Below, one piece after another: positions 3,758 through 51,936 of a DNA stretch of 64,000 bases; positions within the stretch are counted from its first letter, which is position 1; each line of letters starts with the position of its first letter. Origin of the DNA: Tetraselmis striata (taxonomy: Eukaryota; Chlorophyta; Chlorodendrophyceae; Chlorodendrales; Chlorodendraceae). The notes beneath the pieces are model-generated. The model was not told the origin of the DNA, searched no databases, and saw only the letters and a program-made list of their open reading frames with translations. Location of the stretch: the NCBI GenBank assembly GCA_006384855.1, contig VCJN01003494.1:1-64000 (forward strand), in the 5' to 3' direction. Position numbers and translations under genes: made by a program.

Positions 3758-4297
3758 GGCGGCCAGCGCGTGGGGCGCGCGCTGCCCGCCCGTGCCGACT
3801 AAGAGGGCTGGGCCGTGTCGCCTCTGTGCAAGCAGCCTCGAGGCGGCACTTTGCCTGCAGATGCAAGGTCGTGGGGTGAATTGGAGGAACGGCAGGGTGG
3901 GTCAAGGCGGACAAAGTCGTTCGCCACAGGTAATGCCGGTACCGGTAGGATGATTTTGAGGGCCGTTGGTGGGTGATGTCATCCCTCCCAGACGACTACA
4001 GACATCGACGCAGACGTGCCAGGATTTCCACGCGAACGTGTCCTGCTTCATTTCGGTGCGGCAATTGCGGCGGATTTATTACCGGTCATGCGCGCATTGC
4101 GCACTGGGCGAGAACAAGCAATTGAAAATAACCTCGGACATATTTCAGGCATAATCATCATTATATCCTCAATAGTTCCTCGTCGATTATTAGGGTTGTT
4201 AATGGCTAGCGACTATCTCTGGGCAAAGCTAACTTAACCTGACAGTAAATTATAAGGACCGTAAATTCACATAGCGCTGAATTAAGCTTAATTCACA
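3758..4297. other. Intergenic spacer between the membrane-protein gene and the first mobile element
   Basis: Nothing coding is supported here apart from the probable upstream exon of the minus-strand gene near 3758-3830. The part from about 4080 to 4297 is AT-rich and ends at the left boundary of a mobile element. Confidence 0.35.
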
Positions 4298-4603
4298 TTT
4301 CAAAGTTGAGTCTGGTTTTGCCAAAAAGGTCGCGCAGGCTGTTTTACACGGTCAAGAGCCGAAATTGGCAGGAAGGTTTAGCGAAAAGCGTGGAGGGAAA
4401 ACGGAGTCAGGGGGGGCGCTGCGTGGAACGCAGCGAAAACTGGAAGATGGCAGGCTCAGCTGTTCTGGCTGCTTTTATGTCTACTCGTGCTGCACCCAAC
4501 AAGGGCGCAACAACAGTTACTAGTTCCCGTACCACTGCACAGCACTTGTAGCTGAAAAGCGGTTAGGTCAAGGATGGAAACCCCATAAACTAGTTTAGAT
4601 CAT
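4298..4603. mobile_element. Short non-autonomous derivative of the tyrosine-recombinase element
   Basis: This roughly 306-bp segment has the two ends of the 2.9-kb element next to it but no coding sequence. Its first 27 bases or so match the left end of the full element (AGTTGAGTCTGGTTTTGCCA). Its last 187 bases (4417-4603) read identical to the right end of the full element (7333-7519), including the terminal hairpin at 4417-4435 and the boundary word TTTAGATCAT. The middle, about 4325-4416, does not match the full element. It therefore looks like a mobile derivative that keeps only the sequences needed in cis. The full element begins directly at its right boundary, so the two are in tandem. 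Confidence 0.7.
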
Positions 4604-4681
4604 TTCACAGTTGAGTCTGGTTTTGCCAGTCTTGAGCGAACGGAGAGAGCGGTGGATTGACGGAGAAGGGGTAGCGCCAAG

Positions 4682-6343
4682 TCATGAAGGAGGCACTGGG
4701 AAGGCCACCGCTGCGGAGTCTTGTTGGACTTGGAAGTGGCGGAGGGGGGCGATGTGTCCAAAGAAGAACCACGCGCCAGGAAAAGGAAGAACGTTGGGGT
4801 CGATGTAGTCCAGAACGACATCAGAGTTAGTGGCCCAACCGCCTTGGTAGCGGATGTGGGACAGTGGCGCTCCAATGGCGTTTGCTGCAGAGGCTGCGCC
4901 CTTGCGTAGACTGTGTGAAGTCCAGGAAGTGCCAGCAGGGGGGGCAGCGTTGACTAGGTTGACTGCTGTAGACAACCAGTCTGACATCGTAGTAGCAGTC
5001 CAAGGTTTCGACTGCTCAGCCACATTGACAGCCCAGAAATTGGAGGTAGCCAAGCCAACAGTAACCAGGGGGACAGACTGGACGTTGTCGATGAAGTAGC
5101 GCAAGAGACGTGCCACTCGAGGGTGCTCGGACACTGGAAGGAGAAGTACGCGCAGGTCGTCAGGTCCCCGCCGGCCGGCGCGACCCTTCTCGCGGTAGAT
5201 CTGCAAGGTGATGTTGTAGGTGTCGACATGCACATCTTGCACTCGACACGAGACGCCAGTAAGGCCCCTGGCAAAGAACAGGAAGTTGACAACCGAGGCC
5301 AAGAGGGCTCGGTAGTCGAGGTGGGACTCTGGGTAAGGAGCAGACACAATTAGCTCGGCCTTTGAGACGAAGCGGTAAGCCACATCCGCAGGCAGAGGGA
5401 CACGCAAAGGGGCAGCGTCCAGTCGACGCTGACGTAACATTAACCCACGTCTTGCCGAAGTGAGGTGTAGGCTGTCCTTGGCGATCGGGACGAGGTTGTG
5501 CAGCTCGAAGAAGGTGTTGATGGCAGACAGATAGGGCTGCAGCGACTTAGCTGCGATATGCCCTCGCTCCCCGATCCAGGCAACGTACCGAACAACAGTA
5601 GCAGTAGTCGCCTCTAGCGGGCTGATGTTCTCGGAGTCGTGGCAGAACTCAGCGAACTGAGCCAACCTGCCGGCGTAGCTCTTGAGGGTCTGAGCGCTGA
5701 GGGAGCTGGAGAGCAGGTCGAGCGTCCGCTGGCCTAGCTCGTCTGAGCCGAACGCGTCATGTAGTCGGGATCGCAGTGACGCAGCCCACGGAGCGACAGC
5801 TGCGGGCTCGTCGATTACGTAAGTGCGTCGTTTTACTGACAGAGTGCCACCGGCACGGCTACTGTTCGCAAAGTACTCGGCAGCAGCGGTTAGGTTCCCG
5901 GCGGTTGGCCGGTAGTTGCTGGACGGGTTTGCAGTAGCTCCAGTACGGGTTTGCGGGGCTAGGTTCAGGTAGGAGGGCCGCCCCGCGCGCCCTTCGCGCT
6001 CATAGCGCCTGTCCCGTGCGTAACGTACACGCGCGAAACTTGGTCGTTGCGAACCGGTTGTAACTCGTAGTGTAACAACCGACGAACGCAGAGATGGGGT
6101 TGTAAGAAAGGCGGATGGTTGAGCCGCCATGTGCAGGTGTGCGGATGGTTGAGCCGCACTCGGCTGTAGCTGTAAGAAGCGCCGCACCGAGGAAGGTCTA
6201 AATGAAGTCTGTAAGGTGGGGGGGTCAGGTCCTGACACATGGCGCTCATCCCGCCGTTGAGCTGCAAGGGTGCGTCTTGCGGCGGTCACCGAAAGGTGGC
6301 CTCGCAAGGCTCCTGCAGCTCCGACGAACGGCGCCCCACACCG
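4682..6343 (-). CDS. Tyrosine recombinase (phage-integrase fold), probably made by readthrough
   Basis: Cuts and rejoins DNA to excise and integrate the element. The frame runs from just after the gag-like TGA (6346-6344) to the stop at 4682, about 553 codons. The first ATG comes only about 70 codons in, after a conserved in-frame stretch. Counting from the TTG at 6307, a core-binding (SAM-like) helix region lies at about 195-250 (LKSYAGRLAQFAEFC). The catalytic domain follows. The first catalytic Arg is either R347 or R355 in the ARGLTGVSCRVQDV segment. His and Arg of box II are H465/R468 (HSLRKG). GGW is at 489-491 and the nucleophile Tyr501 is in DYID. All these residues are present, so the enzyme looks functional. 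The family (YR superfamily) is secure; placement in Crypton versus DIRS is not. Confidence 0.85.
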   Translation of the reverse strand, partial: RCGAPFVGAAGALRGHLSVTAARRTLAAQRRDERHVSGPDPPTLQTSFRPSSVRRFLQLQPSAAQPSAHLHMAAQPSAFLTTPSLRSSVVTLRVTTGSQRPSFARVRYARDRRYEREGRAGRPSYLNLAPQTRTGATANPSSNYRPTAGNLTAAAEYFANSSRAGGTLSVKRRTYVIDEPAAVAPWAASLRSRLHDAFGSDELGQRTLDLLSSSLSAQTLKSYAGRLAQFAEFCHDSENISPLEATTATVVRYVAWIGERGHIAAKSLQPYLSAINTFFELHNLVPIAKDSLHLTSARRGLMLRQRRLDAAPLRVPLPADVAYRFVSKAELIVSAPYPESHLDYRALLASVVNFLFFARGLTGVSCRVQDVHVDTYNITLQIYREKGRAGRRGPDDLRVLLLPVSEHPRVARLLRYFIDNVQSVPLVTVGLATSNFWAVNVAEQSKPWTATTMSDWLSTAVNLVNAAPPAGTSWTSHSLRKGAASAANAIGAPLSHIRYQGGWATNSDVVLDYIDPNVLPFPGAWFFFGHIAPLRHFQVQQDSAAVAFPVPPS

Positions 6344-7252
6344 TCACTCGTGCTCACCTTCGCGGCCACGTCCACGTCCGCCGCCACGTCCTCGCCCACG
6401 CCCGCGACCTGCAGCTGCAGCCGCCACTCGAGAAGTAGCGGGCGCCTTGGCGCTGCTGGCAACGGTCGCCTCGAAGACACGACGCTCGTAGTCCCGCATG
6501 AGGTCCCCAAAGATCGCGGAACCCAGATGCTCCGAAGCAGGCTGAAAATGCTGGGCTCGCAGCACATCCAGAACACCTTGGTCACCGTGCACACGCTTGA
6601 TTTCATTGAGCTTCCGTAGGAAGGCCAAACGAAACCGAAACGCCTTGTCGATGGCCTCGGCGTGGTTCCGGGCTCTCGCGAGGTAGGGGGTGAAGTCTTG
6701 GTTGTTGGAAGGGACGTAAGGCAGTAGCTCGTCGAGCGCCACGAAAAGGGCGGCCATGTGGGCCCCGAAGCACGACATCCACAAGTACTCCTCCTGGGCC
6801 GGCAGACGCCGGTCATCCTGCTTGAGGTACTCGTTCGTTAGGTCGGTGCTCAAAGGGAAAAGTCCAGGCACTCGGCGGACCGGTCGAACGGCCTCGTAAC
6901 CAGACTCTGCTCTCTGCAGTAGCTCTGGCACCGCGAGGTAATCATCCTCGGCACTCACGGATTTTGCTCCGACACGGCCGCTCTGGGCTAGCTCTAGCAA
7001 GTCGGGGCGCTCTGCGGCTCCCCCGCTGCCTGTCGGCTGTCTCGCGAAGCGCTGCCCTGAGCCGGAGCCATGTGCCCCTTCTCCATCAACAACGCGATCA
7101 CGAGCCGTCAATTGTGCCACAGCTGTAGCCAGCTCTCGCAGTAATGAAGACTGGGCCCTCATATCTGCGTTCAACGACTCCAACGTCGGCTCAGCGACGG
7201 GTTCTTCTCCATCTGACATAGCAACGCACGGACGTACGGACGAGAATATCAC
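6344..7252 (-). CDS. Gag-like / nucleic-acid-binding first ORF of the YR element
   Basis: A 302-residue protein, or about 290 if the second Met (MSDGEE) is used. It has an acidic start, a predicted helical region with repeated Leu (SLLRELATAVAQLTARD), and a conserved core with YLWMSCFGAHMAALFVALD and ARNHAEAIDKAFRFRLAFL. It ends in an alternating Arg-Gly tail ([17 protein letters not shown]), the kind that binds RNA or single-stranded DNA. It lies just upstream of the recombinase and ends GAG TGA CGG, in frame with it. Copies 2 and 3 carry the same protein in decayed form. I call it gag-like from position and architecture only. No zinc knuckle is present, and I do not recognise a named family. 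Confidence 0.6.
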   Translation of the reverse strand: MIFSSVRPCVAMSDGEEPVAEPTLESLNADMRAQSSLLRELATAVAQLTARDRVVDGEGAHGSGSGQRFARQPTGSGGAAERPDLLELAQSGRVGAKSVSAEDDYLAVPELLQRAESGYEAVRPVRRVPGLFPLSTDLTNEYLKQDDRRLPAQEEYLWMSCFGAHMAALFVALDELLPYVPSNNQDFTPYLARARNHAEAIDKAFRFRLAFLRKLNEIKRVHGDQGVLDVLRAQHFQPASEHLGSAIFGDLMRDYERRVFEATVASSAKAPATSRVAAAAAGRGRGRGRGGGRGRGREGEHE

Positions 7253-7332
7253 ACTCGGGTGGCGAGCCGGGTGTGGTCTTGAACAACCTGGGGTGACCTT
7301 GCTCGCAACGGGTTACGAGACAGTTTTTACAT

Positions 7333-7351
7333 CGCTGCGTGGAACGCAGCG
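7333..7351. repeat. Perfect terminal hairpin of the YR element (copy 1)
   Basis: CGCTGCGT GGA ACGCAGCG forms a perfect 8-bp stem with a 3-nt loop. It marks the inner edge of the 187-bp right-end block. The same hairpin occurs at 4417-4435 and 51750-51768 and, altered in both arms, at 20246-20264. Confidence 0.85.
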
Positions 7352-7519
7352 AAAACTGGAAGATGGCAGGCTCAGCTGTTCTGGCTGCTTTTATGTCTAC
7401 TCGTGCTGCACCCAACAAGGGCGCAACAACAGTTACTAGTTCCCGTACCACTGCACAGCACTTGTAGCTGAAAAGCGGTTAGGTCAAGGATGGAAACCCC
7501 ATAAACTAGTTTAGATCAT

Positions 7520-8230
7520 GCTCGCGGTCCGTACATCACCTCTTTCATCAGTCCTGGTTCTGGTCCTTATTTCACCTCCTGCTTCTGCCTCTTATTACTA
7601 CTTCATCAGAACCCGATCCCACCGCCACCCACAACCAGCCAGCCACCGAGCGCCATCAAAGACCGCAGCACCCACTTTACCGCCCTCGCGAGCCATGCCG
7701 AGCCTTATGAGTCAGATCAAAGGGCCGCTGCATGTGTGCGTATATGCTGTTGGCGGCGCTCGGAGTTCGGTGCATTGCTCAGCAAGCGGCGGGCCGACAC
7801 GTTGACGCTCCGAGGCTGCTCTCGGCAGCGCGCTTGCGACATCCATTTATGACCAGGCTGACGTACCCTGACTGGGTCAGACTGGCGATCAAGTTTCCTC
7901 GAATTTGCGATATGCCAACCTCATGTCACAGAGGGCGAGACCCGACAACGAGGTGCGCGGTGTCCCCTCAGCGTGTCGCCCTTCGCCCCCCCCCCCCCCC
8001 CCCCCCCTTCCCTCCTCCGGCCTCCAGCCCCTGCAGCTACACGCATACATACACATGTAGGCGTGATTTGAATAGGTTGATGGTGGAGTCGCCCAGCGAG
8101 GCCCCAGCGGCAGTGGCGCCGGCGCCCAATCAATGTTGGGGGAGCAGCTGGCTCTGCTGGGTTGGAAGGTGGAGGAGCTGCGCGGCTGGCTCACTGACTG
8201 CGCAAAGTGGTGCAGTGCCTGGCCTCATTA
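7520..8230. other. No supported gene
   Basis: A C homopolymer at about 7986-8006 and Ala/Pro-rich shadow frames are present. I see no exon with convincing splice signals or family similarity. The stretch just after the element boundary (7520-7700) is AT-rich, unlike the rest. Confidence 0.3.
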
Positions 8231-16832: not shown

Positions 16833-18198
16833 TCAGATGCCTGTGCCGTGGACTTCAAGCACCGTCTCGAGTGTCGATCTCTGTTCTGACGGCATGCGAG
16901 CCGTCCGGCAGCAGCCACGCCGTGTCATGGCATCCACCACGGGTCCAAGGCAGCCCCATCTGGCCATCCTCCGGATTCTGGATGCGTCCTCCAGGAGCTG
17001 CGCCACCTCCAGATGGCCTCGCTCAGACGCGTAGTGCAGAGGCCGGCAGCCATCCGCATCCTTGGCGCTGACGTTTGCCGCCCGGCCCTCGACGCCCCCG
17101 AGCAGAAGCCGAACCACCGCCGCTACGTGGCCCTCCAGGGCCGCGCAGTGCAGCGCCGTGTCGCTGTGCTTGTCCTTGGCGCGGATGTCCGCCCTCTGCT
17201 CCCCGACGCCTTCCAGCAGCAGCTGCACCACCGCTGCTTGACCACCCGCAAACGGCATGTGCAGCGCTCCGCCAGACGCGTAGTGCAGCGACGTCCTTCC
17301 ATTCTCATCTCTGGCGTTGACGTCCGCCCACTGGTTCCCGGCGCCCTTGAGCAGCAGCCGCACCATCGCTCCATGGCCTCTGCCAGCCGCCAGGTGCAGG
17401 GCCGTGCAGCCAAAGGTGGTTCGGGCGCTGATGTCCGCCACCTCGCCCTCGACGCCCTTCAGCAGCAGCCGCACCACCTCCGCGTGGCCCCTCCCAGCAG
17501 CCTTGTGGAGCGCTGTCTCGTCATCCTCGTCCTCAGTTGGGACGTCCGCTTTCTGGCCTTGCACACCCCTCAGCAGCAACTGCACAACCTCCTCCCGGCC
17601 AAACAGGGCCGCCCAGTGCAGCGCCGTCCGGCCACGACTGTCCCGTGCATTGATATCCTGCGCCTCGTGCCGTCCGGCGCCCTGCAGCAGCAGCCGCACC
17701 ACCCCAGCGTGGCCCTCCTTGGCCGCGCGGTGCAGCACCATCATGCCAAACAGGGCGCCGTGGGAGTCGATCCCCACTGCCCGCTCTCCAGCGCCCTCCA
17801 GGAGCAGCCGGACCACGGCCACGTGGTCTGTTGCTGCCGCCTTGTGCAGCGCCGTGTCGCCATACTGGTCCGGGGCGACGATGTCCACCACCTGCCCCCC
17901 AACACCCTACAGTAGCAGCCGCACCACGGCTTCGTTGCCTCTTAGTGCCGCCCAGTGCAACGCCGACAAGCCGCGTTCCATGTCCCGGGCCTAAGCGTCC
18001 TGTCTCTGGCCGCCGACGCTCTCCAGCAGCAGCCGCGCCACCGCGTCGTGGCCTTCCTTAGCCGCATAGTGCAGCGCTGTCACGCCAAAATCGTCCACGG
18101 CGTTGATGTCCGTCCTTCGCCCCTGGATGCCCACCAGGCGCAGCCAAACCTCCGCCGCATTGCCGTCCTCAACCGCCTGATGGTCACAATCCTCCTGC
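16833..18198 (-). pseudogene. Ankyrin-repeat protein with two in-frame stops
   Basis: Ten ankyrin repeats are read on the minus strand, each with the TALHxAA and VVRLLL helices. The period is about 37-38 residues instead of the canonical 33, because of a constant GV-G-(Q/E)-x-A-D insert. Ankyrin arrays mediate protein binding. The frame is otherwise open but is broken twice: TAG at 17993-17991, where the repeat expects Asn/Lys, and TAG at 17909-17907, where it expects Gln/Glu/Lys. Downstream of the second stop, 352 residues remain open to 16833. The upstream edge at 18198 looks like an intact acceptor (CACCGCAG) and directly abuts a truncated recombinase copy. TAG is a normal stop in neighbouring genes, so readthrough by code change is unlikely. 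I infer a pseudogene, or a gene restarting after 17907. Confidence 0.75.
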
Positions 18199-20443
18199 GG
18201 TGACCGTCCAGAAGTTAGTCTCGGCCTCGGCCTCAGGGACCAAGGGGCAGACTGGACGTCGTCGATGAAGTGGTGCAGAAGACGGGCGACACAGGGGTGC
18301 TCCGACACGGGAATAAGGCAGCACGCGTAGGTCGCTGGGGCCGCGTTGGCAGGCGCGACCCTTCTCGCAGTACACGTGCAGGGTGATGTTGTAGCGGTCG
18401 AATTGCCCCCGGGGGATATTGTAGCTGGTTGTTGGGGGACGATGTTGTAGCGGGTTAGCCCCAATTTGGCCCCGCTCACCATTCCAAACGACGTACCGAA
18501 AGACGGTAGCAATAGTCGTCTCCCGCGGGCTGCTGTTCTCGGAGTCTCGGCAGAACTCCGCGAACTGAGACAGCTTGCCGGCGTAGCTCTTGAGCGTCTG
18601 GGAGGTGAGGGAGCTCGAGAGGAGGTCAAGTGTGCGTTGCAGCTCATCCGAGCCGAACGCTTCCTGTAGACGGGCCCGGAGTGAAGCCGCCCATGGGGCG
18701 AGAGCCTCGGGCGCGTCAATCGCGTTTGTGCGACGTGCGACCGACGGGGTAACATGAGACCGGGCCATTCCGGCGAAATAATCGGCCGTGGCGGTCAAGT
18801 TACCGGCAGTCGGACGGCAACTGCTAGATAGACGGGTTAGTTTGGGCATATCAGTCTGGGTTTATTTGCGGGGCAGTTTTCAGGTGGACGGGCCGCCTCG
18901 TGCATTTGTCGCGCTCCTAGCGCATGTCTCGCGCATAACGTACACGCGCGAATGTTGGTCGTTGCGAACTATAGCTGTATTTTAAACCCGTAGAGTAACT
19001 ACCGGCGGACGCATTGCTGATGAAATGGTATGGGAGACGGGTTGTTGAACCGTCATGTGCAGGTGTGCGGATGGTTGAGCCGCACTCGGTTGTAGTTGTA
19101 AGAAGCGCCGCACCGAGCAAGAAGGTCTAAGTCAAGTCTGTAGGGTAGGGGGGTAGTCCGGTCCCGACACGGGGCGGTCATCGCGTCGTTGAGCTGCAAG
19201 GTTTACTTAGCGGTCCGGTGGTCACCAAAAGGTGGCCTTGCAAAGCGCCAGCGGCTCCGACGGAAGGCGCCCCACGCCATCACTTTTGCTCACCTTTGCG
19301 GCTACACCCCGGCCGCCACCGTGTCCGCGTTCACGCGAGCGGTAGTGGCGGCAGCCTTGGCACTGCTGGCGACTGTCGCCTCGAATCACGACGCTCGTAG
19401 TCGCGCATCAGGTCGCCGAAAATCGCAGAGCCAAAATGCTCCGCTGCGGGCTGGAAATGTTGAGCCCGCAGTACGTCCAACACAGGTCACTGTGTACACA
19501 CTTGATCTAGTCAAGCCTCAGCAGCCATGAAGGCTAGACGAAAGCAAAACGTATTGTCGATGGCCTCGGCGTGGTTGCGAGTGTGCGCGAGGTAATGGGC
19601 AGAGCTTGATTCGCATCGGGGACATAGGGTAGCAGCTCGTCGAGAGCCACGAAGAGAGCGACTACTATGTGAGCCCCAAAATACGTTATCCAAAATGTAT
19701 AACCGGCTCCTCCTGGGCCGGCAGACGCCGGTGATCCTGCTTGGGGTAGTCGTTTGTCAGGTCCGTACGCAGAGGAGAAAGCACATGGCACATGGCTGAC
19801 CGGTCGAAGGTCCTCGTAACAATGCTCTACTCGTTGTAGTAACACTGGCACCGCGAGGTAGTCGCCCTCGCCCCTCGCGGATTTTACTCCGACATGGTCG
19901 CTATGGGCTAGCTCTAGCAAGTCGGGGCGCACAGCGGCTCCCCCGCTGCATGTCGGTTGTCCCGCAACGCGCTGTCCGGGTTCATAGCCATGTGCTCCGT
20001 CTCCATTGACACTACGTTCAAGAGCCGTCAATTATAGGCCAACGATGATGAGAGCCCGAGCAGCAATGTAGAATGGGCATACATATCATACATAAGCGGT
20101 TCGGGCGTCGGCTCGGCGACGGGGTCTTCTCCATTGGGCATGGTGACGCATGGACGTACAATGAGAATTGCACACGGATGGTGAGCCGGGTGTCGTCTTA
20201 AAACAGCATGTGACTTTGCCCGCAACAGGTTACGGGACAGTTAATCGTTGTGTGCAACACAGCGAAACTGGAAGATGGCGGGCTCAAATGTTACGGCTGC
20301 TTTTATGCCTACTCGTGTTGCACACGAACGGGCGCACCGACGGGTGAACCAGTAATAACCCGTACCACTTAGCAGCACATGCAGACACAAAAACGGATAG
20401 GAAATGAGGAAACCCCATAAACTTATAAACTAGTTTAGATTAT
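18199..20443 (-). mobile_element. YR element copy 2, truncated and decayed
   Basis: Read on the minus strand: right-end block with an altered hairpin (20443-20246), gag-like remnant (about 20150-19285, with frameshifts and stops), the conserved TGA, then a recombinase remnant (to about 18200). The recombinase part keeps the core-binding segment (LKSYAGKLSQFAEFC) but stops within NFWTV, before the HxxR-GGW-Tyr region. The entire catalytic C-terminus and the left end are therefore missing, and ankyrin sequence follows. The gag-like frame ends AAG TGA TGG instead of GAG TGA CGG. At the right edge the core word appears as TTTAGATTAT (20434-20443), with a second copy just outside (20447-20456). 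Many C-to-T type differences from copy 1 suggest it is old. Confidence 0.75.
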
Positions 20444-49038: not shown

Positions 49039-51936
49039 TTCAAGTTGAGTCTGGGTTTGCCAGTCATGAGCGATCGGAGAGAGCGGTGGATTGACGGAGA
49101 AGGGGTAGCGCCAGGTCATGAAGGAGGCACCGGGAAGTAAGGCCACCGCTGCGGAGTCGTGTTGGACTTGGAAGTGGTGCAAGGGGGCGATGTGGCCAAA
49201 GAAGAACCATGCGCCAGGTGAAGGAAGAACGTTGGGGTCGATGTAGTCCAGAACGACGTCAGAATTAGTGGCCCAGCCGCCTTGGTAGCGAATGTGGGAC
49301 AATAGAACTTCAATGGCGTTGGCGGCAGACGCTGCTCCCTTGCGAAGGCTGTGTGAGGTCCAGGAAGTGCCGGCGGGAAGGGCAGCACCAACAAGACGGC
49401 TGAAGACAGCCAGTCCGACATTGTAGCGGCGGTCCAAGGTTTTGACCGCTCGCTTGGGGTGGCCGCCCTGAAGTTTGTTTCAGCCAAGGCAACAGTAACC
49501 AGGGGGACAGACTGTACGTTGTCGATGAAGTGGTTCAGGAGGCGTGCAACTCGGAGGTGTTCTGACACCGGAAGGAGAAGCCCGCACATGTCGTCGGGTC
49601 CCCGTCGGCCAGCGCGACCTTTCTCGCGGTACACCTGCAAGGTAATTTTGCAATCGTCGACATGCACATCCCGCACACGGTAGGAGACGCCAGTAAGTCC
49701 CTTGGCAAAGAACATTAAGTTGACAACCGAGGCAACGAGGGCTCGGAAGTCGTGCTGGTACACTGTGGTGGGAGCAGACATAATTAACTTGGCCTTCTCA
49801 ACGAATATGTAAGCTACATCAGCAGGCAGAGGAACTCGCAAAGGGGCGGCTTCCAGTCGGCGCTTTCGCAGCATCAACCCACGTCTAGCTGCAATAAGGT
49901 GTAGGCTGCTGTCCTTGGCGATTGGGTCGAGGTTGTGCAACTCGAAGAACGTGTTGATTGCAGACAGGTAGGGTTGCAATGACTTAGCTCCAATGTGCCC
50001 TCGCTCACCAATATCCATGCAACGTACCGGACGACAGTAGCATTGGTCGCCTCGAGCGGGCTGATGTTCTCGGAGTCGTGGCAGAACTCCGCCAACTGAG
50101 ACAGTCTGCCGGCGTAGCTCTTGAGTGTCTGAGCGGTGAGGGAGCTGGAGAGCAGGTCGAGCGTCCGCTGTCCTTACTCGTCTGAGCCGAAAGCATCATG
50201 CAGTCGAGATCGCAGTGAAGCAGCCCGGGGAGCGACAGCTTCGGGCTCGTCAATTACGTAAGTGCGTCGTCTTACCGACAGATAGAGTGCCAGGGGGGCG
50301 ACTACTGTTTGCAAAGTACTCGGCAGCTGCGGTTAGGTTTCCGGCGGTTGGCCGGTTGTTGGCGGGGCTAGGTTCAGGTAAGAGGGCCGCCCCGCGCGCC
50401 CTTCGCGCTCGTAGCGCCTGTCACGCGCGCAACGTACACACGCGAAGCTTGGTTGTTGCGAAACAGTTGTAACACGCTGTGTGACAACCGACGGACACAA
50501 TGATGAAATGGTACGGGAGGCGGTTGGTTGAGCCGCCATGTGCAGGTGTGCGGATGGTTGAGCCGCATTCGGCTGTAGCTATAAGAAGCGCCGCACCGAC
50601 GAAGATCTAAATGAAGTCTGTAAGGTGGGGGGGTCAGGTCCGGACACAGGGCGCTCATCCCGCAGTTGAGCTGCAAGGGTGCGCTTTGCGGCGGTCACCG
50701 AAAGGTGGCCGCGCAAAGCTCCAGCAGCTCCGACGAAATGCGCCCCACACCGTCACTCGTGCTCACCTTCGCGGCCACGCCCGCGTCCACCGCCACGCCC
50801 TCGTCCACGCCCGCGACATGCAGCTGCTGCCGCTACCCGAGCAGTAGCGGTTGCTTTGGCGCTGCTGGCCACAGTCGCCTCGAAGACGCGACGCTCGTAG
50901 TCCCTCATGAGGTCCCCAAAAATCGCGGAACCCAGATGCTCAGAAGCAGGCTGAAAGTGTTGAGCTCGCAGCACGTCCAGAACACCTTGGTCACCGTGCA
51001 CTCGCTTGACCTCAATAAGCCTCCGTAGGAAGGCCAAACGAAAGCGAAAAGCCTTGTCGATGGCTTCGGCGTGGTTCCGAGCTCTCGCGAGGTAGGGGGT
51101 GAAGTCCTGACTTGCAGCAGGGACGTAAGGTAGCCACGAGAGCCACGAAAAGTGCGGCCATGTGGGCGCCGAAACACGACATCCATAGATACTCCTCCTG
51201 GGCCGGCAGACGCCGGTCATCCGGCTTGAGGTACTCGTTCGTTAGGTCGGTGCTCAGGGGGAAGAGTCCAGGCACTCGGCTGACCGGTCGAACGGCCTCG
51301 TAACCAGACTCTGCTCTCTGCAATAGTTCTGGCACTGCGAGGTAGTCATCCTCGTCACTCACGGATTTTGCTCCGACACGGCAGCTCTGGGCTAGCTCTA
51401 GCAAGTCGGGGCGCTCTGCGGCTCCCCCGCTGCCTGTCGGCTGTCCCGCGATGCGCTGCACTGATGCGCTGCCCGGAACCGGAACCATGTGCTCCTTCTC
51501 CATCAACAACGCGCTCACGAGCCGTCAATTGGGCCATCGCTGTAGCAAGCTCTCGCAGTAATGTAGACTGGGCCTTCACGTCTGCGTGTAGCGACTCGAG
51601 CGTCAGCTCAATGACGGGTTCTTCTCCATCAGGCATGGTAACGCACGGGCGTACGGATGAGAATATCACACACGGGTGGTGAGCCGGGTGTGGTCTTGAA
51701 CAACATGGGGTGACCTTGCTCGCAACAGGTTACGAGACAGTTTTAACATCGCTGCGTGGAACGCAGCGAAAACTGGAAGATGGCATGCTCAGCTTTTATG
51801 ACTGCTGTTATGTCTACTCGTGCTGCACCCAAAAGGGCGCAACGACAGGTGCCTAGTTCCCGTACCACGGAGCAGCACTTGTAGCTGAAAAGCGGTTAGG
51901 TCAAGGGAGGAAACCCCATAAACTAGTTTAGATCAT
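49039..51936 (-). mobile_element. YR element copy 3, full length but decayed
   Basis: Same layout as copy 1 over 2.9 kb: right end with a perfect hairpin (51750-51768), gag-like region (51669-50753), TGA followed by CGG, then the recombinase (to about 49115). The boundary word TTTAGATCAT is at 49029-49038 and 51927-51936. The gag-like frame is broken by at least two frameshifts (near 51450 and 51130). The recombinase has a stop near 50590 and frameshifts near 50030 and 49400. The box I region reads AKGLTGVSYRV instead of ARGLTGVSCRV. HSLRKG, GGW and DYID are still readable in one frame. It cannot make its own proteins but keeps both ends. Confidence 0.85.

Follow-up and report, generated by a model that had tools for sequence, protein, structure and literature searches.

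We analyzed a window of 64,000 nt of Tetraselmis striata DNA (contig VCJN01003494.1, positions 1 to 64,000 of the forward strand), in which a 3.2 kb mobile element occupies 7519 to 4296 on the minus strand, with its open reading frames (ORFs) and terminal repeats in the layout A1-ORFs-B1-A2-B2. In this copy (copy 1), a gag-like ORF1 ends in a UGA codon, and beyond it a tyrosine recombinase frame runs on without a change of phase until the TGA at 4684-4682 (Table 1). An earlier reading of the window (the original prediction) proposed that the recombinase is made by readthrough of this UGA. We followed up the proposal in copy 1, in two decayed copies within the window (copy 2 and copy 3), and in further copies from the genome.

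Table 1. Features of the element in copy 1 and stop codons of the decayed copies (window coordinates)
Feature	Position	Strand	Remarks
A1 terminal repeat, 187 nt, element 5' end	7333..7519	-	identical to 4417-4603
Upstream frame, copy 1	6344..7312	-	322 codons up to the closing GAG TGA; first Met at 7219
Gag-like ORF1, first Met to UGA	6344..7219	-	RG-rich C-terminal tail; no Pfam match
UGA stop, proposed leaky, CGG next	6344..6346	-	copy counts at the stop given in the text
Tyrosine recombinase frame	4682..6343	-	553 codons; SAM-like N-terminal domain; catalytic domain matched weakly, with HxxR, W, Y
Post-stop stretch, coding in phase, no ATG	6131..6343	-	71 codons
Extended RNA stem (predicted)	6241..6335	-	starts 8 nt after UGA; nt 12-106 from the U of UGA
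Nucleotide-level conserved block	6130..6222	-	C tract, TTACAG, two small predicted hairpins, first in-frame ATG
B1 repeat, 28 nt	4601..4628	-	from repeat comparison
A2 repeat, 187 nt	4417..4603	-	100% identical to A1
B2 repeat, 28 nt, element 3' end	4296..4323	-	96% identity between B1 and B2
TGA in copy 2 (decayed), followed by TGG	19280..19282	-	AAG TGA TGG, read at the junction
TGA in copy 3 (decayed), followed by CGG	50753..50755	-	read at the junction

The two frames and the stop between them

In Pfam, the recombinase protein matched the N-terminal SAM-like domain found in phage integrases (6.1e-08); a match to the Phage_integrase catalytic domain was weak and under the curated cut-off (0.0013). 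Its C-terminus aligned with Cre across HxxR, W, and Y, the positions that are catalytic in Cre (best E 0.0082). For ORF1, the label "gag-like" reflects its position and its RG-rich tail; Pfam found no zinc finger in it, and no further zinc-finger search was made. No reverse transcriptase (RT), RNase H, or methyltransferase was found when both proteins were compared with Pfam; the only other frames of at least 150 codons inside the element, of 183 and 165 codons, were not searched.

The original prediction described two in-phase frames joined across GAG TGA CGG and about 70 codons without an ATG, and copy 1 has exactly this arrangement, with the earliest in-frame ATG after the stop at codon 72 (position 6130). 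Post-stop codons 1-12 contain neither an ATG nor a near-cognate start. Read by eye, the first codon that we take to be a near-cognate start is the TTG at 6307, which is codon 13.

The prediction also held that the TGA and the open frame behind it are conserved in copies 2 and 3. The TGA is present in both copies, with the next codons as predicted, but neither copy retains an open frame. A net +4 change shortly after the junction breaks the frame of copy 2, where tblastn gave recombinase pieces with stops or frame changes; the recombinase of copy 3 is likewise not intact, giving tblastn pieces with stops, the first of them seen as TTA TAG. The open frame is conserved in copy 1 and in the best-scoring copies elsewhere in the genome, where 76 of the 78 best recombinase matches had no inner stop and the other two had one TAG each. 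Tubulin matches in the genome were free of inner stops in 25 of 26 cases, and the remaining one contained two TGA codons. Because the recombinase and tubulin matches are so seldom interrupted, and because the recombinase itself ends in TGA (kept in 16/19 rows), UGA appears not to serve as a general sense codon in this genome.

Conservation at the stop and beyond it

We divided the copies into young (39 rows with at least 98% identity to copy 1, representing 35 distinct places and including the window copy), mid (20 copies, 84-95% identity), and old (31 copies, below 80%); L039, which duplicates copy 2, was excluded. TGA stands at the stop in 39/39 young rows, 19/20 mid copies, and 22/31 old copies. 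The mid exception is a single TGG. Among the old exceptions, two copies have TAA; AGA, TTA, and a deletion occur once each; the sisters L075 and L076 (97.8% alike) have TTT; and in the sister pair L073 and L074 (99.3% alike; around element position 1172) the TGA is changed and a TAG follows one codon later. At 625 genomic sites that match the 32 bases surrounding the stop, with any triplet allowed at the stop itself, 615 have TGA; this pattern fixes CGG and the flanks, and so it samples near-identical copies and is silent on the next codon. Two sites missing from the exact TGA pattern also belong to this element; each has TGA-CGG and a recombinase frame that remains open as far as the examined sequence extends, and neither is included in these counts. 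The original prediction named a sense codon at this position in other copies as evidence that would speak against it. Such codons are marginal: they occur in 1/20 mid and 6/31 old copies (the site is deleted in one more old copy), and at most 10/625 near-identical sites lack TGA. CGG follows the stop in 39/39 young rows and 18/20 mid copies. Young copies are 98-99% alike and hence carry little information.

Selection on the codons after the stop was assessed in the mid and old copies from Nei-Gojobori ratios of nonsynonymous to synonymous change (dN/dS). Over the 40 post-stop codons (6343-6224), dN/dS in the readthrough frame was 0.24 in mid and 0.32 in old copies, against 0.81-2.81 in the other two frames of the same stretch; the gag-like frame gave 0.20 and 0.24, and the recombinase core 0.17 and 0.21. 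The predicted purifying selection on ATG-less codons is thus borne out, in that frame only. Within the stretch, dN/dS was 0.22 (mid) and 0.88 (old) for codons 1-8, 0.18 and 0.25 for codons 9-27 (6319-6263), and 0.31 and 0.26 for codons 28-40. In comparisons with copy 1, the third codon position is the most variable one in the post-stop stretch, in the phase of the gag-like frame; the changes in codons 10-12 are at third positions, and in the short stretch of codons 9-13 nearly all are. Among old rows with a net length change after the stop, 10/17 changed by a multiple of three (one third is expected by chance; sisters were counted separately). Purifying selection reaches back to about codon 9, upstream of the first near-cognate start. 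Selection begins before any start, and therefore ribosomes would have to arrive from upstream.

The original prediction noted a possible stem, GGCCACC-TTTC-GGTGACC, about 48 nt after the stop. The hairpin is real (about 6301-6284), but it is just the tip of a longer predicted stem. In copy 1, the 122 nt from the UGA folded into one extended stem of -59.7 kcal/mol (z score -2.98; 2/200 shuffles were as good). Windows starting at the UGA had a mean z of -3.50 in the 20 mid copies and -1.87 in the 31 old copies; in each group, none of the other windows among the 35 compared scored as low. RNAalifold, applied to gapless rows of each group separately, gave a similar long stem at -50.7 kcal/mol for 19 mid copies and -40.5 kcal/mol for 14 old copies. 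As an internal control, the sequence after the terminal UGA of the recombinase had a mean z of +1.01 (n = 18), and there third positions change least.

In 45 distinct gapless rows, which include the rows from which the tested stem was derived, 93.6% of the cells at stem positions can pair, compared with 31-49% when one side is slid along the other. Two-sided changes accounted for 21 cells in four pairs; the shuffled mean was 2.6 cells, and the covariation score was reached by 0/500 shuffles. When the rows were recoded synonymously, 36/45 had z values no higher than -1.77 (the 45 include 12 near-identical young copies). Copy 1 gave a recoding z of -1.83, and control windows on copy 1 had a mean of -0.54 and a minimum of -3.04. 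The stem is conserved across copy groups.

Proposed readthrough and its alternatives

The TGA and the phase of the two frames are conserved, the codons after the stop are under selection in that frame, and the stem is conserved. TGA retention, in-frame selection, and a predicted stem 8 nt after the UGA support the readthrough interpretation, and we consider it likely, judging from the sequence, that UGA readthrough yielding an ORF1-recombinase fusion is the best explanation of the junction. In the mechanism that we propose, translation of the transcript would for the most part yield the gag-like ORF1 protein, and a minority of ribosomes would decode the UGA in GAG-UGA-CGG as an amino acid and continue into the recombinase, with the extended stem-loop that begins 8 nt downstream weakening termination. 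The product would be an ORF1-recombinase fusion, so that the supply of recombinase would be rationed and the enzyme would be physically attached to the gag-like protein. We infer from the conserved features that readthrough occurs and that rationing is its benefit; its rate would be at the per cent level if the site behaves like viral leaky sites.

The main competitor places the start of the recombinase further downstream. Synonymous variation (pS) has its lowest combined rank in the block at 6222-6130, at 0.04-0.05 in mid and 0.09 in old copies against means of 0.26 and 0.44, and conservation in the block extends to all codon positions. Its two small predicted hairpins, one of them GTGCGG...CCGCAC, lie directly before the first in-frame recombinase ATG; the block may be a promoter or an RNA signal. 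Inside the gag-like frame, at 7051-6932 on the minus strand, a second stretch, roughly 120 nt long, also has strongly reduced synonymous variation (pS 0.03-0.09 in mid and 0.11-0.21 in old copies) and is perhaps another RNA or DNA signal. If a promoter in the block at 6222-6130 produced a separate recombinase mRNA with initiation at the ATG at 6130, the UGA would be a plain stop. The nucleotide-level signal that the low synonymous variation points to, and the wide retention of this ATG (39/39 young rows, 20/20 mid copies, and 24/31 old copies), favor such an mRNA, which would also make frame breaks upstream of the ATG harmless, and a minor promoter in the gag-pol junction of Tca2 provides a precedent (PMC2194720). 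A separate mRNA leaves unexplained both the RNA stem at the UGA and the selection acting on the 40 codons that separate the UGA from the block, and we regard it as unlikely to replace readthrough, although the two could act side by side.

Removal of the UGA by splicing is a good deal less likely still. A donor, AAG/GTGAGC, adjoins the UGA, its GGT is kept in 20/20 mid copies, and a 39-nt in-frame intron (6357-6319) would join the frames; the less coding-like character of post-stop codons 1-8 in old copies also fits an intron. However, the strong acceptor TTACAG (CCTTACAG ending at 6209) would define a 149-nt intron that is out of frame, and in-frame acceptors at 57 nt or more would delete codons that are under protein-level selection. 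In-frame introns of 39-48 nt would be very short, with acceptors that are poor or unconserved (GTCGGAG, for the 39-nt intron, is weak). The donor GT is changed in some old copies, and the conserved stem covers both the supposed intron and the supposed exon. An initial reading, in which AAG/GTGAGC and TTACAG delimit an intron across the UGA and the recombinase frame is not maintained, had seemed to gain support from single-base C-tract changes in mid copies. The original prediction had named transcripts lacking the TGA as contrary evidence; a genomic search for spliced copies joined to the TTACAG or TTTAG acceptor matched 0 places (this search used exact matching without a positive control and did not cover the 39-nt intron). 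We dropped the intron because its codons are selected in the readthrough frame, the strong acceptor is out of frame, and the junction pattern was absent. The last alternative, that two separate genes lie in phase by accident in a recently expanded repeat family and that the TGA is a plain stop, gains something from the similarity of the young copies and from the one-in-three chance of a phase match. It is largely refuted by the dN/dS values, which show that selection on the post-stop codons of mid and old copies is specific to one frame, and the whole-codon length changes and the conservation of a stem at the UGA count against it as well; we give it hardly any credence.

Several observations weigh against readthrough. 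In the 22 old copies that have TGA, it is followed by TGG in 11 cases and by CGG in eight, so that the predicted conservation of TGA-C holds for the TGA in young and mid copies but not for the next codon in old ones; the strongly leaky UGA-C context is not the sole state among copies. Codons 1-8 are not protein-like in old copies. Single-base changes in the C tract break the recombinase frame in 9/20 mid copies and in many older copies, although in 0/39 young rows. All of the C-tract-changed mid copies with long sequence (6/9) carry other lesions, and a homopolymer C tract is a likely place for decay; one +1 copy is one base longer than 24/39 other listed places over the matched stretch (compared by length only), and L090, a 92% copy, has one extra codon in the C tract and keeps the frame. 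The copies share ancestry and the old ones have decayed, so that none of these counts represents independent events. As to the stem, the structure in copy 1 alone is moderate over its 122 nt, and in a 251-nt context a local hairpin replaces the stem base and leaves the upper stem in place. When 104 windows of copy 1 are ranked, the stem region is not in the top 12, which lie mostly in the terminal repeats, and 4/49 control windows reach the recoding z of copy 1. RNAalifold on all 45 rows together gave a weaker structure (-25.2 kcal/mol), a gappy 52-row alignment retained 13 pairs only, with little covariation, and the number of two-sided pairs was reached by 30/500 shuffles. Finally, the junction of Tca2 (UGA plus pseudoknot), taken alone, gave no readthrough in a Saccharomyces cerevisiae reporter (PMC2194720).

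Known systems and the wider element family

In type II viral readthrough, as described in a review of viral non-canonical translation, UGA is followed by CGG or CUA and mostly by an extended stem-loop about 8 nt 3' of the stop; these sites serve alphavirus, tobravirus, pecluvirus, furovirus, and pomovirus replicases and coltivirus VP9' (PMC3542737). The original prediction had called TGA-CGG an established leaky context, which agrees with this class. The site in copy 1 fits the type II features that can be tested in sequence: UGA-CGG, the start of the predicted stem, and an in-frame C-terminal extension under selection. It differs in being located in a chromosomal mobile element, in its gag-like upstream protein, and in its tyrosine recombinase extension.

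Two retroelement junctions are comparable. In gammaretroviruses and epsilonretroviruses, a Gag stop is likewise read through to append an enzyme, but the stop is UAG with a pseudoknot or stem-loop and the appended enzyme is RT (PMC3542737), rather than UGA and a recombinase as here. Tca2 of Candida albicans has gag and enzyme ORFs split by a UGA with 3' RNA structure (PMC2194720), but it has pol and long terminal repeats. With PAT, Toc3, and Ngaro elements, the element shares A1-[ORFs]-B1A2B2 split direct repeats, a gag-like ORF in first position, and a recombinase in direct orientation (PMC4157794, PMC8547959). It differs from them in that no RT, RNase H, or methyltransferase was found in its 3.2 kb (Pfam, both proteins) and in that the recombinase is joined to ORF1 through a stop. 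Crypton elements resemble it in having a recombinase without RT; however, DNA tyrosine-recombinase elements of this kind have a recombinase domain only (PMC4157794), and here a second conserved ORF precedes the recombinase and split direct repeats are present.

No earlier report of readthrough in a tyrosine-recombinase element was found among the listed open-access papers; the proposal would place a known mechanism, virus-type readthrough, in a new setting. If readthrough occurs, virus-type UGA-CGG readthrough with an extended stem would extend to a eukaryotic tyrosine-recombinase element, and what is rationed would be a DNA recombinase instead of a polymerase. Since 615 near-identical genomic sites bear the TGA, the host transcriptome and proteome should readily show whether readthrough works. 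The element also raises the question of how it keeps retroelement-style split direct repeats when no RT has been found in it. A more far-reaching reading, which we rate as possible but rather doubtful, is a capsid-plus-recombinase lineage without RT of its own whose recombinase arises solely as a readthrough extension of a capsid-like protein and which moves by way of circular intermediates; if so, readthrough would both ration the recombinase and load it into particles.

At the A1 end, ...TGATCT follows variable flanks in 37/37 near-identical rows examined (some rows are the same place), and the 3' ends of near-identical copies share ...CTTTGAAA (26 rows), which supports the end position 4296. 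No target-site duplication was evident by eye at the element ends of near-identical copies. The element is very abundant, as the 625 sites attest. The genome contains many RTs (of 3001 candidates, 150 were scored). No autonomous partner sharing the A repeat was seen among about 100 listed of 802 sites with the inner A end (the pattern excludes some continuations); those listed run into the gag-like leader, except two that resemble the A2 flank. A scan of viral contigs found no relatives outside the genome, and Rfam gave no match across 4290-7520 at E up to 1.

Head-to-tail arrays of the element occur in three other contigs (G000:C2249, 54044-61534; G000:C764, 26346-34410; G000:C348, 1647-11437), with a period of 2916-2923 nt or 3203 nt. 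Their tandem arrangement suggests the integration of circular units, with which it fits. Elsewhere in the window, by eye, a long ankyrin-repeat-like frame lies directly downstream of truncated copy 2 (16833-17906, minus strand), and a gene resembling those for ubiquitin-specific proteases, in which introns and long simple repeats are seen, occupies 1-2751 on the plus strand.

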